In this document: positions 50,706 to 57,246 of the stretch, in pieces
Position numbering within the stretch: the stretch's first letter is position 1
Layout: each line of letters begins with the position of its first letter
NCBI GenBank assembly: GCA_015234045.1
Contig: JADFWU010000004.1
Span: 1 to 64,000, forward strand
DNA: 64,000 nt
Reading direction: 5' to 3'
Source of the DNA: Magnetococcales bacterium
GTDB taxonomy: Bacteria; Pseudomonadota; Magnetococcia; Magnetococcales; JADFWU01
Position numbers and translations under genes: made by a program
Notes under the pieces: generated by a model
Databases searched by the model: none
What the model was told of the DNA's origin: nothing
Seen by the model: the letters and a program-made list of their open reading frames with translations, nothing else

Positions 50706-52454
50706 TTAAAAACGCATGCCTAGCAATGAACCAGACACATCATTATCTGTCAATCTCAACCGTACATATTGATTAATATCAAAATTTGAACAAAACTCAT
50801 CATGCGGAACCATATCGCTATTCATAGTGCAGATATACTGAAAACCACGTTTTTCTGACTCTCTACAAGCCAATTCCAAGGCCCGCGCACGTTGACGCTC
50901 ATCAACGCCATCAAACATTAGACTATCATGAATCAGAACACGGGGAGTTTTTTCATGTTCCGCCCATAAACTAGCCAACATCAAGTCATAACAGAAAATC
51001 TTCATATTCCCGATTCCGTCACTTTCTGAGCGTTCAATTTCAACATCAAAAAGATAACCTTTAGACTCAACATTCACTACTAAGTCACCTGGAACCTCAT
51101 ACAAATATTGAGAATATTCATTAAATAAGGAAATTGCTTTTTCACGCACTGTTTTTCGTTCATCGTGATCTATGCGCCATTTTTGGTGTAATTTTTCTCT
51201 ATCAATTTTCAGCTGACTTTGACCAGTCACAAAAGCACGTTGATTTTCAATCATGGATATTACTTCATTTAACTCATTTACTGCTTTCATATGTTGCTGT
51301 TGAAGACGATTATACTCATTCAATGCACCATGAGCTTGCAGAGTTCTCATAATATTAGCACGTATTTCAGTTTTTTCTTGAATGCTTTTTTCACGTTGAG
51401 ATATAGATAGTTTTATTCTTTCTATTTCATCAGCAAGAAAATCATGTCGGTTCGCAATAATCTGAGCATGAAATTTTTTGACTTCTTCTATCTTCCTTAG
51501 TGCAATGCCAGGAAGTGCGATTCCAGCTTCTTCATAAATTCGAACCAAAGCATCATTCTGTGGTGGAGTCTCATCTTGAAGATTTCCTTCATATAAAACT
51601 AAAAACTGCTGATCCATATTGTTCGAATTCATCAAATCATGAACTTCTTTTGTTAGCTTGTCAGCATTATTTTGCAGTTCTTCATATTTTGGATGGACTC
51701 GAAATTGGCTAATTTCTATTTCTTCTCGCTCAATCTGACTCTCAATCCTAACTCTTTGCGACTCTAATTCACCCAATGTTGTTTTAAAACCTTGAACAAT
51801 TCCACCATCAATTGCCTTCTTCAAAACATTAATATCTTCTTCACGCTTTTTTATTACTTCAAGTTCTCCAACATATTCCCATGCAAGCCCAAGTAAAAAA
51901 GCATTTGTAAGCATGGCATCCTGTTTCGTTTGCTTACCATACGACTCAAAAGGCGTTAAATAGGCACCTTTTCCACGTCGAATAAAGTAAGAGATCATAC
52001 TTCGAAAAGATGCCCGTTTAGACTGTCCTTTCTGTTCTATTGGGAGACCAAAAAGAAGATCTCCCAGTAACAGATTCAGTTCGCTGGCTAGATATACTAA
52101 ATTACCTTTACGTGCAGTCGGTTGAATAGGCCATAATGGCGATACATCATAGACATAAATATTTGAATAACTATCTATTCCTCGGGTGATTGTAACAGGT
52201 TTATTATCAATACTTATCTCTAAGGAAAACGTCCAATCAGCTAAATGTTTTTTTGGCAGTACTTTCTTTTGCGCTGCATCAATATTAGCCCCAAGACAAA
52301 AATGAATTATTTGAATTAATGTAGTTTTTCCAAGACCATTACGAGAATCCTTCCCCGAAGAAACCGTTGTGCGGTCTGCAAGAACAATATTGAACCCCTC
52401 GGTAAAGGCCAATTTTCTAAAACGATGATCATTTGCATAGATCTGAGTAATCAC
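50706..52454 (-). CDS. ABC-3C system ATPase (DUF2326)
   Basis: A 582-residue SMC/RecN-like ABC ATPase. Walker A is NGLGKTTLIQ near 39-48. A long coiled-coil middle (~195-440) precedes the C-terminal DUF2326 region with PRVLIHDSLMFDGVDERQRA (Walker-B/D-loop-like) and YICTMNSDMVPHDEF. Such ATPases are the sensor/motor of ABC-three-component conflict systems. It is translationally coupled (4-base overlap) to the middle component. Lower GC than neighbouring housekeeping genes suggests horizontal transfer. Confidence 0.87.
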   Translation of the reverse strand: MITQIYANDHRFRKLAFTEGFNIVLADRTTVSSGKDSRNGLGKTTLIQIIHFCLGANIDAAQKKVLPKKHLADWTFSLEISIDNKPVTITRGIDSYSNIYVYDVSPLWPIQPTARKGNLVYLASELNLLLGDLLFGLPIEQKGQSKRASFRSMISYFIRRGKGAYLTPFESYGKQTKQDAMLTNAFLLGLAWEYVGELEVIKKREEDINVLKKAIDGGIVQGFKTTLGELESQRVRIESQIEREEIEISQFRVHPKYEELQNNADKLTKEVHDLMNSNNMDQQFLVLYEGNLQDETPPQNDALVRIYEEAGIALPGIALRKIEEVKKFHAQIIANRHDFLADEIERIKLSISQREKSIQEKTEIRANIMRTLQAHGALNEYNRLQQQHMKAVNELNEVISMIENQRAFVTGQSQLKIDREKLHQKWRIDHDERKTVREKAISLFNEYSQYLYEVPGDLVVNVESKGYLFDVEIERSESDGIGNMKIFCYDLMLASLWAEHEKTPRVLIHDSLMFDGVDERQRARALELACRESEKRGFQYICTMNSDMVPHDEFCSNFDINQYVRLRLTDNDVSGSLLGMRF

Positions 52455-52678
52455 GGCCTATTCCTTCTGATCAAACCATCTACCAACTCAACGGCTCCGA
52501 TAGCATAGAGAAAATCCAATACCAGAACAAAACGCCAATAGACAGTTAGCCCAGGTGCTTGACGCACACGATTCCATAGACTAGTCACAGTCTGTGGGGT
52601 GTGTAAATTATTCAACACCACAGAACCTGCTCCAATAACCGCATGATCAAGGTCAACATGTTTTGTGGGGAGAATCAC
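52451..52678 (-). CDS. ABC-3C system middle component (MC6-like)
   Basis: A 75-residue protein starting MILPTKHVDLDHAVIGAGSV, continuing TVTSLWNRVRQ and WRFVLVLDFLYAIGAVELVD, the winged-helix-like pattern of ABC-3C middle component 6. Assumed to bridge the ATPase and the effector. It overlaps both partners by 4 bases. Confidence 0.8.
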   Translation of the reverse strand: MILPTKHVDLDHAVIGAGSVVLNNLHTPQTVTSLWNRVRQAPGLTVYWRFVLVLDFLYAIGAVELVDGLIRRNRP

Positions 52679-53436
52679 TTTTCAAACACCTCACAACTTT
52701 GAAACAAATAGACCAATACAGAAAGGCCAGCAGCTTTTTGAGTAAAATCCCAACTTTCATCACTGGCAAATTCTTGCATAGCCTGAAACAAATCATTACC
52801 TACTAATCCTTTACTCCTAACTCTGTTATATTCTTTGACAAAACCAGACTTAAGGCGTTCAGGAAATTCATCGTCCCATTTTGCCACAGATTGCAGATAA
52901 CTTCTAACCAAGTCACTTTTTAGCAACCCAATCTGAATTGACCCTTTTATTTCTTCTGTCAGATTATTACGTGCCATCTTATCTGGAATATTTAATAAAG
53001 AGACATCAGGAAATATCTCCTGTCCTGGCTTAGCTTGAATTCTCTTGGTGACCTCCTCTAATTCATCGAACCCAAACCGTGTAAAAGCTTCATTCAATTG
53101 AATTCTAACCCATTCTTCGTGTTCTTTTTTGATTTTTTCAAGCAATTTCACTGGCCATATATTTGGCTGTTTATCTATCTTAGAATGGCAAGATGGACAA
53201 AGCAAAATTAGATTTTTATGATGATCTCTTTGATCAAGTGGATAATCTGGGTCACCGCGAGCTGCATCATCCGATTTACCAATAATATGAGCTAGCTCTC
53301 CAATCTGCTGAACTTTTTCACTTTTAGTACCAGATAATAACAATTCCTCCCGACAATCTGGCATGGAACAGAGAGCTGCTGCTGCACCATAAATAATTTT
53401 TATATCTTTTATTGCAATATTTCTTGATTTCGCCAC
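52675..53436 (-). CDS. ABC-3C effector: HNH nuclease plus ABC-3C CTD
   Basis: A 253-residue protein. The N-terminal HNH-type nuclease (~15-105) has Cys23/Cys28, His50 (ELAHIIG), His72-His73-Asn75 (DHHKNLILLCPSCH) and Cys80/Cys83-His84. After a linker, the C-terminal ~100 residues (LKSGFVKEYNRVRSKGLVGN, then AAGLSVLVYLFQSCEVFEK) match the ABC-3C C-terminal domain. Presumably the toxic effector of the system. The GTG start at 53436 has AAAGGA 9 bases upstream. First gene of the three-gene operon. Confidence 0.85.
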   Translation of the reverse strand: MAKSRNIAIKDIKIIYGAAAALCSMPDCREELLLSGTKSEKVQQIGELAHIIGKSDDAARGDPDYPLDQRDHHKNLILLCPSCHSKIDKQPNIWPVKLLEKIKKEHEEWVRIQLNEAFTRFGFDELEEVTKRIQAKPGQEIFPDVSLLNIPDKMARNNLTEEIKGSIQIGLLKSDLVRSYLQSVAKWDDEFPERLKSGFVKEYNRVRSKGLVGNDLFQAMQEFASDESWDFTQKAAGLSVLVYLFQSCEVFEK

Positions 53437-53812
53437 AAACCATGTCCTTTGCAGAAGTTTCTAATCCATCCCAGCTTATACTTCTTCTACTATTTTGGAT
53501 GAATGATTATTTATAGAGACCAATGAAAACATGTCAATTACAAATTTATTTCATGTCAACAACATACTGGATCTCTTTCATGAATCATACACAACACCAA
53601 CCCATACCTTCATATCAGGGTCTTTACTCCCTTAACCAACGTGTTTTCATACACTCACATACTGCAATTAGAACAGCTTCTGACTTAGTTCTAACCCCAC
53701 AAAGTGCTATTAGACGCGTTAAATCTGTATAGATATACCATTAATCCATATTCTGAACTTTTTTTTCCATTCATCACTTGGCATTAATACCTGACATACA
53801 TCAGGTCCATTC
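53437..53812. other. Stretch between ABC-3C operon and IS element
   Basis: No convincing gene. It contains the upstream region of the minus-strand ABC-3C operon. A plus-strand frame at 53523-53732 (69 codons) has a weak AGAG-type RBS and no recognised product. Confidence 0.4.
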
Positions 53813-53833
53813 TTTCACTACCGGACACTTTTT
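53813..53833. repeat. IS left terminal inverted repeat
   Basis: Exact complement of 55040-55060; contains CACTACCGGACACTTTTT. Confidence 0.9.
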
Positions 53834-53837
53834 ACCC

Positions 53838-54926
53838 CTAAGCCCTCTTGAGAGGCATAACGAGTCGTAAGCCTTCATTTAGAAGGTGCTCCAGCCAGCG
53901 AAATCCAAGCTGAAACAGGCTTAAATCAATGCGATTACAACGATGTATCTCCCCTGCCTTTCCGCTTTCTTTGCACAACTCTCCCAAGTAAACCACCCAG
54001 ATGTAAGCAAGGCAGGCTGCTATCAGAAGGCGCGACAAGCGTTCAGGATTTGACAGGTGGGATCGCTGGATTTGGAAGCCTCTTGTCTTCTGGTCACTGA
54101 AAAACGTTTCGATTCTGAAACGAAGGGCGTACTGATCACACACCTCTTCAGCAGTGGTCAAATTTGAGACCAGGTATATGGGCTCTTTGCAGTCTTCTCT
54201 CCACCAACAAACCACCCTAACAGGTCCATGTTTATCTTTTTTAAACAAACAATTGCAAACATCTATATATTCTCCTTCCGTCATGTGTTTCTCAATTTCA
54301 CGGCAAGAAAATTCATATCCCTCCCAATTCAAAATGATGCTCTTACTGGTCCGACAGGAAAAGTCCCATCCCATCATGGATACCGTCTCCAGAAGACGGA
54401 CACCATCAAACTCCCCGTCCCCCAGGATCACCACACGGGTATCTGATGGAATCAAGGCTTGAATCTGCTCCATCAGGCGCAAGTGCAACTCTTCAGGGAG
54501 GTGCCCCTTTTTACCCTTCAGCACAATCCAAGTGATCGGCAGAGCCCGCCCTTTGAAGATGACGTTGGCCATCAAAGCGATGTTCCCTCGTCCAACGGAG
54601 CTTCCATCTATAGCAATGACCAAGGCCTCTTGAATCTGGGCAAGTCGAGCCATCAATAGTTGCGCGAAAGGAAGAAAATATTCTTCTATTTCAATGCGTT
54701 TATTCCGCACCCAACGAACAAACTTCTTTTCCCTGCTTGTCAGTTTTGTGCCGTTGGGCGCTTTGCTTGCCACCTCAGGCAGATGTACATTCTTTGCCCC
54801 GATGATTCCGCTCATCATGGCTGCAAGGGTATTCAAATGACGGGCTACGTTCCCGCTGGCAGTGCCAGGAAAAAGCGTGGTAAGCTCTTTTCTGATGATG
54901 CGGAACCTTTTCGCATTGTCACCCAT
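53838..54926 (-). CDS. IS4-family transposase
   Basis: A 362-residue DDE transposase. The catalytic Asp residues are in VIAIDGSSVGRG and VILGDGEFDG; the Glu is in the YALRFRIETFFSDQKTRGF block (the Y(1)R(3)E(6)K signature of IS4). A C-terminal basic tail follows. The gene is uninterrupted and fully inside the inverted repeats, so it may be active. Confidence 0.92.
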   Translation of the reverse strand: MGDNAKRFRIIRKELTTLFPGTASGNVARHLNTLAAMMSGIIGAKNVHLPEVASKAPNGTKLTSREKKFVRWVRNKRIEIEEYFLPFAQLLMARLAQIQEALVIAIDGSSVGRGNIALMANVIFKGRALPITWIVLKGKKGHLPEELHLRLMEQIQALIPSDTRVVILGDGEFDGVRLLETVSMMGWDFSCRTSKSIILNWEGYEFSCREIEKHMTEGEYIDVCNCLFKKDKHGPVRVVCWWREDCKEPIYLVSNLTTAEEVCDQYALRFRIETFFSDQKTRGFQIQRSHLSNPERLSRLLIAACLAYIWVVYLGELCKESGKAGEIHRCNRIDLSLFQLGFRWLEHLLNEGLRLVMPLKRA

Positions 54927-55039
54927 GGCTGTGTCCTTTGCTTGGTCGTTGAGGATGCAGCCATTTTTATTTTTCTCGGATGAAACGTCAATATTTCAAT
55001 GTATTACCACGTCTTTCAAAGCTCGTCAAACTCCTCTGG

Positions 55040-55060
55040 AAAAAGTGTCCGGTAGTGAAA
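55040..55060. repeat. IS right terminal inverted repeat
   Basis: Exact complement of 53813-53833. Confidence 0.9.
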
Positions 55061-56143: not shown

Positions 56144-56602
56144 GTGAAACAGATATTTTTTACTATACTGATAACGCTACTATTTTCCGTTAGCGTAATC
56201 GCGTCACCGGACAAAACCCGTTTTGATGATCTGCAAGGTGTCCTCTATCAAAGCACTCATGATGGTGACACGATTCGCTTTAACATTCCCAACACACACC
56301 CATTATTTGGTCACAATATTCCAATTCGCCTACGTGGCATTGATACTCCAGAGATCAATTCATCCTGCCCATCTGAACGACAACATGCCATTGCAGCCCG
56401 TCAGCATGTTCATACTCTTTTGCACAATGCACACACAATCACTCTGAAAAGGGTTGGACGTGGGAAATATTTTCGGATTCTGGGTGATGTCGTTTTTGAT
56501 GGCGTGGACCTTGGCCAGCATCTACTACAGAATGGGTGGGCCGTTTCTTATGATGGCGATCAGAAGAAATCTGTTTGGTGTGACTCTATAGTTAATGAAT
56601 AG
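56144..56602 (+). CDS. Thermonuclease-like (SNase) exported protein
   Basis: A 152-residue staphylococcal-nuclease-fold protein with a signal sequence (IFFTILITLLFSVSVIA). Motifs are HDGDTIRF, IRLRGIDTPEIN (active-site Arg and Glu region) and FRILGDVVFDGVDLGQHLLQ, ending with WAVSYDGDQ. Starts at GTG. Likely a periplasmic or secreted nuclease. It follows the structured region above, with the lipoprotein gene on the same strand upstream. Confidence 0.8.
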   Translation: MKQIFFTILITLLFSVSVIASPDKTRFDDLQGVLYQSTHDGDTIRFNIPNTHPLFGHNIPIRLRGIDTPEINSSCPSERQHAIAARQHVHTLLHNAHTITLKRVGRGKYFRILGDVVFDGVDLGQHLLQNGWAVSYDGDQKKSVWCDSIVNE

Positions 56603-56619
56603 AAATCAAGCGCAACATT

Positions 56620-57006
56620 TCACCAAAGGCGATTGACCGTATATTGATCAAATAGCTTCTCAATACTGATCAAGGTAAGATTTTCTACTATGGACTGCGT
56701 AATCAACATCCGATCAAAAGGGTCTCTATGCGCTCCAGAAAGCAATCCGGCACGTTGGGCATGAATGAGAGAAATAGGCAGGCTTGAAAATCTTTGTGTG
56801 GCGAGATGGTGAGGCAAATTCTCTGCTATTTCTTGAGCATGAGGCAATTTTCCAATTCGGAATTTGGTGGCAATTTCCCAAGCTGATGCTGAACTGACAA
56901 AGACCTCATTCCTCTCATTTGCAATAGCGTTTTTTGCCCGTTCAGATAATTGTTCATTTCCATAAAACCACCAAAGCAGTGCATGCGTATCAAGCAATAA
57001 GCGCAT
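56620..57006 (-). CDS. PIN-domain (VapC-like) toxin
   Basis: A 128-residue PIN ribonuclease. MRLLLDTHALLWWFYG carries the first catalytic Asp, VSSASAWEIATKFRIGKL the Glu, and HRDPFDRMLITQSI the further Asp residues. Full length. It follows the Phd-type antitoxin gene with a 3-base gap, a toxin-antitoxin pair of the COG3744 type. Confidence 0.9.
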   Translation of the reverse strand: MRLLLDTHALLWWFYGNEQLSERAKNAIANERNEVFVSSASAWEIATKFRIGKLPHAQEIAENLPHHLATQRFSSLPISLIHAQRAGLLSGAHRDPFDRMLITQSIVENLTLISIEKLFDQYTVNRLW

Positions 57007-57009
57007 CCC

Positions 57010-57246
57010 TCACTCTCCTTCCCACGCCGCTAACTCTTCTTCCGGCAGTGGATCAAAAAAGCGCTCATCTACAGAACCCGTATGTTTCAATGTGCCAAAT
57101 GCACGCCCTTCAGGAAGCGGTGTAATAGGAACCAATTTAACAAGCGGATTTTTTCCACGAGCAATAATCACCTCTTCGCCCGTGAGTGCTTGATTGATAA
57201 TTCTTGAGAGATGTGTTTTTGCCGCATGAATAGTGTATTGACTCAT
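57010..57246 (-). CDS. Phd/YefM-family antitoxin
   Basis: A 78-residue antitoxin. The N-terminal DNA-binding part YTIHAAKTHLSRIINQALTG is typical, followed by EEVIIARGKNPLVKLVPI and a C-terminal acidic toxin-neutralising tail (PLPEEELAAWEGE). An inverted repeat directly upstream (57259-57285) is a likely operator. Confidence 0.9.
   Translation of the reverse strand: MSQYTIHAAKTHLSRIINQALTGEEVIIARGKNPLVKLVPITPLPEGRAFGTLKHTGSVDERFFDPLPEEELAAWEGE

Follow-up and report, generated by a model that had tools for sequence, protein, structure and literature searches.

Three overlapping genes in the genome of a Magnetococcales bacterium raise the question of whether a nuclease, a 75-aa protein and an SMC-like ATPase together make up a defence system and, if so, how such a system would work. 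The genes lie in what we call the window, the whole stretch of 64,000 nucleotides that was analysed (positions 1 to 64,000 of the forward strand of contig JADFWU010000004.1, assembly GCA_015234045.1). Their closest counterparts are the ABC-three-component (ABC-3C) systems, which Krishnan et al. 2020 are said to have described; these form a large computational family of which few members have been tested, and our literature search found no functional test of the group that combines an HNH effector, middle component 6 (MC6) and a DUF2326 ATPase.

Gene layout and surroundings

The three ORFs occupy window positions 50706-53436 on the minus strand and form a compact 2.7-kb operon. Gene 1 (52675..53436, 253 aa, GTG start) encodes an HNH effector with an ABC-3C C-terminal domain (CTD), gene 2 (52451..52678, 75 aa) encodes MC6, and gene 3 (50706..52454, 582 aa) encodes a DUF2326 SMC/Rad50-like ABC ATPase. 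An earlier note on this DNA had described three minus-strand genes with 4-base overlaps, and this is what we find: both junctions are GTGA, one joining the effector stop to the MC6 start (52675..52678) and the other the MC6 stop to the ATPase start (52451..52454). As read from the sequence, a likely Shine-Dalgarno element, AAAGGA (53445..53450, minus strand), is located 8 nt upstream of the effector GTG. The GC content of the operon is 37.2% versus 46.7% for the window, and the operon is present once in its own genome.

The operon is directly flanked by murI and an IS4-like element. We looked for an hsd remnant beside it and found none, with murI and the insertion sequence directly adjoining. 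The IS4-family element, exported nuclease and toxin-antitoxin pair that the note had placed nearby were recovered as a DDE transposase with inverted repeats, an SNase-family protein that appears to carry a signal peptide (56144-56602) and a PIN/Phd-type pair (56620-57246). The IS4-like element (DDE_Tnp_1, 53813-55060) has perfect terminal inverted repeats of 21 nt and is single-copy in the genome; no clear target-site duplication was seen at its ends when these were checked by eye.

Assignment to the ABC-3C systems

Gene 2 matched the Pfam family MC6 (2.9e-14; 53.3 bits, cut-off 27.2) and gene 3 matched DUF2326 (2.6e-38), both above the curated cut-offs, which bears out the earlier reading of a 75-residue middle component and, given the SMC/Rad50-like fold of the larger protein, of a DUF2326 SMC-like ATPase. 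The PADLOC profiles PDC-M68A and PDC-M68B matched the effector (3e-77) and the ATPase (2.4e-189), respectively, both over nearly the full length, and the operon thus holds the pair that defines PADLOC candidate PDC-M68. The 75-aa MC6 protein had no match in the PADLOC library. Taken alone, the window effector fell under the curated Pfam cut-offs (HNH_2 0.0012, HNH 0.0067, CTD10 0.015). Its class is nonetheless secure, because the PDC-M68A match is joined by matches across the family: HNH_2 and CTD10 were each found in 16 of 17 aligned HNH effector homologues, and a family-level count for CTD10 likewise gave 11/11 effectors.

In common with ABC-3C systems and PDC-M68, the operon has the same three genes in the same order, an SMC/Rad50-like ATPase gene of the DUF2326 type, a middle component of the MC6 family and a conserved three-gene neighbourhood. 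The effector architecture, a variable N-terminal domain followed by an ABC-3C CTD, is evident at the level of the family, with the window protein alone scoring below cut-off. The proposed fusion of an HNH nuclease to such a CTD accordingly holds up through cross-profile searches between the effector classes, that is, for the family rather than for the window protein by itself. Neither outcome that would have spoken against the assignment, a lack of middle-component or CTD matches or a lack of co-occurrence among homologues, was seen. We conclude that the window operon is a genuine, intact and selected member of a known, little-tested kind that is already a PADLOC candidate.

A Cap5-like nuclease on a shared C-terminal domain

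The HNH nuclease domain spans approximately residues 9-118 (53083..53412, minus strand), as delimited by an alignment of 17 homologues and an alignment with CBASS Cap5. C23, C28, H50, R60, N75, C80, H84 and D88 are invariant in all 17, and residue 83 is either C or H. Both phmmer and fold searches with this domain found Cap5 (fold match at Z 13.3 over 107 residues); among solved structures, the HNH closest in sequence is 9om4 (5e-22). H50 aligns with the catalytic His56 of Cap5, a position that is Ala in the matched Cap5 sequence, the entries of which include a His56Ala mutant. The HNH domain of Cap5 (HNH-SAVED) has the same zinc and catalytic residues as the window effector; however, where Cap5 carries its SAVED sensor, the window effector has a CTD10-type ABC-3C CTD. 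Since the C-terminal half gave no match to SAVED and has this other domain instead, there is no sign of cyclic-nucleotide sensing by the effector. Activated Cap5 is a tetramer.

The ABC-3C CTD, delimited by cross-profile searches (approximately residues 120-253; 52678..53079, minus strand), is all-helical and ends in LFxxC(E/D)xFEK; a fold search with it returned only weak rows. It is common to HNH-armed effectors and to another class of effectors, in which the N-terminal domain has conserved GDxKxDG and QxY motifs and looks like a restriction-endonuclease fold, a label that is a reading of motifs and not a database match. An HMM of either class finds the other, with E-values from 8e-28 to 3e-13, and hhalign joins them at 5.2e-28; homology across the two classes is what a docking domain for interchangeable warheads should show, and it fits the modular pairing of warhead and dock in ABC-3C systems. 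On the ATPase tree the two effector classes fall in two separate clades, and on this ground we rejected a recent warhead swap within the sample.

An ATPase of the Rad50/LmuB type with an altered Walker B motif

The ATPase gene (all positions on the minus strand) encodes a Walker A motif, SRNGLGKTT (residues 37-45; 52320..52346), in which N39, G42 and K43 are invariant in 30 homologues, predicted helical coiled-coil arms (approximately residues 193-451; 51102..51878) in which no CxxC zinc hook was found, an ABC signature-like SxG (residues 478-480; 51015..51023) and a Walker B motif, RVLIHDS (residues 505-511; 50922..50942). In the latter, Asp510 is followed by an invariant Ser511 where Rad50 and SMC proteins have the catalytic Glu, and the motif reads LIHDS or LVHDS in 30/30 homologues. 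This serine would be expected to slow ATP hydrolysis.

The CTD10 model (PF20275) also matched the ATPase, at residues 292-387 and above cut-off in the window protein and at residues ~280-410 in homologues, reaching 3e-30 (for example L040:3001-4722 and L044:3001-4761). True homology between effector and ATPase was considered and rejected: hhalign alignments of the two reached a probability of at most 1%, and HMMs built from each side never found the other. PF20275 appears to mix two apparently unrelated regions, the effector CTDs and the middle of the ATPase, each of which it matches at up to about 1e-30, and its seed looks mixed; as no profile links the regions, the match within the ATPase is not to be read as a CTD.

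Sequence searches of the PDB with the ATPase and with MC6 gave no match. An AF2 model of the ATPase (pLDDT 85) found its best fold match, and closest structural entry, in B. subtilis YydD (Z 35.3 over 550 residues, at an identity of only 18%) as it stands in 9a6c, a YydD-YydB model based on cross-linking. A control search of B. subtilis returned MC6 and DUF2326 matches. The 9a6c model suggests binding, inside cells, between a DUF2326 ATPase and the product of an adjacent gene. The next matches were LmuB in several LmuACB structures (Z 23-25), together with SMC and Rad50 heads (approximately 20-25 for LmuB, SMC and Rad50).

The likeness to Lamassu extends to the operon, as LmuA-LmuC-LmuB and DdmABC also comprise an effector, a small middle protein and an SMC-like ATPase, and the ATPases share a Rad50-like head, a short coiled coil and a non-canonical Walker B. 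In LmuB the Walker B Glu is generally Gln, which is taken to mean little hydrolysis (PMC10586767), whereas the window family has Asp-Ser, invariant in 30, and the window ATPase has no zinc hook. The window group also has a Cap5-type HNH where Lamassu has Cap4. The LmuB profile gave only a partial match to the window ATPase (8.2e-16), far below PDC-M68B, and the LmuA profile did not match the window effector, so the full-length LmuA and LmuB matches that mark Lamassu in the strict sense are absent.

Proposed mechanism

We think it likely that the operon is a horizontally acquired ABC-3C system of the PDC-M68 group, akin to the Lamassu superfamily, that acts against phages or plasmids as a DNA sensor unleashing a nuclease. 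The mechanism that we infer would begin with the DUF2326 ATPase binding ATP and clamping an aberrant or foreign DNA structure, such as ends, hairpins or replication intermediates. Through MC6 and the effector CTD, the nuclease would be docked onto the ATPase and kept inactive. Sensing would alter the ATP- and DNA-bound state, which we propose is long-lasting owing to the Ser that stands in for the catalytic Glu of Walker B, and the effector would be freed or oligomerised. The HNH domain would then cut DNA with little sequence preference, ending the infection, probably at the cell's cost.

Relatives inside type I restriction-modification operons

Several relatives of the operon are embedded in type I restriction-modification (R-M) operons. 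The arrangement hsdS-[HNH-MC6-ATPase]-hsdR, with genes overlapping or nearly so, occurs in genome G002 (L063:4032-13830), in Methanophagales (L005:1425-10839, with L004 near-identical) and on a viral contig (L033:1642-10901, also L072). In Omnitrophota (L011:1700-13746) two extra ORFs stand ahead of hsdR in an otherwise equivalent operon, and in Elusimicrobia (L010:2520-9827) the slot between hsdS and hsdR holds a 204-aa ATPase remnant; degraded forms of the triad are found at R-M loci of G121 (L066) and G057 (L064). In the R-M loci tested, Pfam matches confirmed the identity of HsdR, HsdM and HsdS. With the other effector class, hsd genes lay directly around the triad in 0/12 loci, a difference from the HNH class that is nominal (Fisher p ~0.03), given that rows are not independent and plasmid flanks cover only 3 kb; one locus of that other class (G109) has an hsdR-like fragment just upstream. 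Others may have noticed this embedding before us.

In three of the R-M loci, HsdS carries a nucleotidyltransferase domain at its N terminus as a fusion (L063:9896-11617, L066:12306-13919 and L010:4526-5983), and at L066 the gene immediately upstream of the fusion is of the nucleotidyltransferase substrate-binding type (PF08780). On contig C51 of the window genome (L086:4760-12830), an unrelated 220-aa ORF sits between hsdS and hsdR and overlaps hsdS by 4 nt.

The nesting in several distant lineages, with its remnants, recalls PrrC. The prrC gene sits between hsdS and hsdR, and PrrC and the Rad50-like RloC both tie an ABC ATPase to a nuclease; they are, however, single-chain anticodon nucleases, whereas the window system has an HNH nuclease and is divided over three proteins, and the window copy is not embedded. 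A precedent comes from prrC, which lies within a type IC locus and is activated by inhibition of R-M (PMC2610378, PMC12707154): on this model the triad would be a second line that an intact type I R-M complex keeps silent and that fires once the R-M enzyme is blocked or its products point to a problem. The window copy would then have to act in trans with R-M genes elsewhere, and the window genome does have type I R-M genes elsewhere, including one locus in which the hsdS-hsdR gap is closed. Placement inside a type I operon, as for PrrC, is found in several relatives but not in the window copy, and most non-nested copies lack an hsd neighbour (the window, G129, plasmids, prophages, L002, L003 and L009). 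Moreover, darTG2 uses the hsdS/hsdR slot and tgvAB a similar one, and tgvAB alone still protects without R-M genes (PMC11411939, PMC12255303). Since unrelated systems use such slots and one of them protects alone, embedding by itself does not show coupling, and the R-M operon could be a permissive insertion slot and not an indication of function. We consider it quite improbable that the window operon guards R-M in this way. More broadly, it is conceivable, if unlikely, that HNH-type ABC-3C systems in general guard type I R-M enzymes: the embedded SMC-like sensor would watch the R-M complex or its DNA products and, once restriction was blocked, set the Cap5-like nuclease free. The window copy would then be a version released from the R-M operon that acts in trans or by its own sensing.

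Distribution, selection and loss of the effector

The ATPase is carried by 11/398 genomes of the phylum, all of which are among the 14 that have MC6, at neighbouring coordinates; the chance probability of this 11/11 co-occurrence is ~4e-19. The co-occurrence check proposed in the earlier note therefore came out in favour of its reading. Between relatives, MC6 had a dN/dS of 0.00-0.10, the effector one of 0.10-0.17 and the ATPase one of 0.12-0.24. Purifying selection of this strength and the 11/11 co-occurrence together indicate that the triad is not a product of chance. No relatives of the ATPase were found among 50,697 phage records, and 46 plasmid records carry relatives; in the 14 of these inspected, the order effector - MC6 - ATPase was kept in 14/14. 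This order, in most cases together with the 4-nt overlaps, is kept in plasmids, prophages, bacteria, archaea and viral contigs. In Bombella, two pairs of loci (L006/L034 and L008/L035), also listed as viral contigs, have the triad on prophage-like regions that encode an integrase and what may be a recombinase.

The effector alone has been lost in 2/5 close relatives, both of them draft genomes, while MC6 and the ATPase stay open and alike. In G026 the loss is clean, with the last 10 codons remaining before an intact MC6 gene and flanking genes on both sides shared with G129; in G121 the HNH part contains two frameshifts, which may be assembly errors. Loss confined to the effector suggests that it is the costly part of the triad. 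Together with carriage on the 46 plasmid records and on prophage-like contigs, this would also suit a selfish addiction module of mobile elements, in which the effector is a toxin that the ATPase and MC6 restrain, and no antiviral sensing takes place. Such modules do not usually place the effector first or use a large ATPase as inhibitor, though, and the chromosomal and R-M-embedded copies, the strong constraint on the ATPase and its structural kinship with Lamassu also argue against this explanation, which we regard as distinctly improbable. A DNA-repair or other housekeeping complex, which the Rad50/SMC fold of the ATPase might suggest, is very hard to reconcile with sporadic presence across the phylum, low GC, carriage by mobile elements and swappable nuclease classes. 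An anti-phage or anti-plasmid system, acquired horizontally as a mobile cassette, thus stays our best explanation of the window operon.

Implications

The novelty of the window system would appear modest, and its function is one that we infer from the analysis; it is a compact three-protein ABC-3C member with clear catalytic residues, in which one can ask whether an SMC-like sensor can function when its ATPase head has no catalytic Glu. What most deserves to be followed up is the embedding of its relatives, natural hybrids in which the triad lies inside type I R-M operons. Its recurrence suggests that the triad might act as a back-up weapon, an idea that can be tested, and the question that the embedding poses for the family is whether the embedded cassettes sense the failure of restriction.
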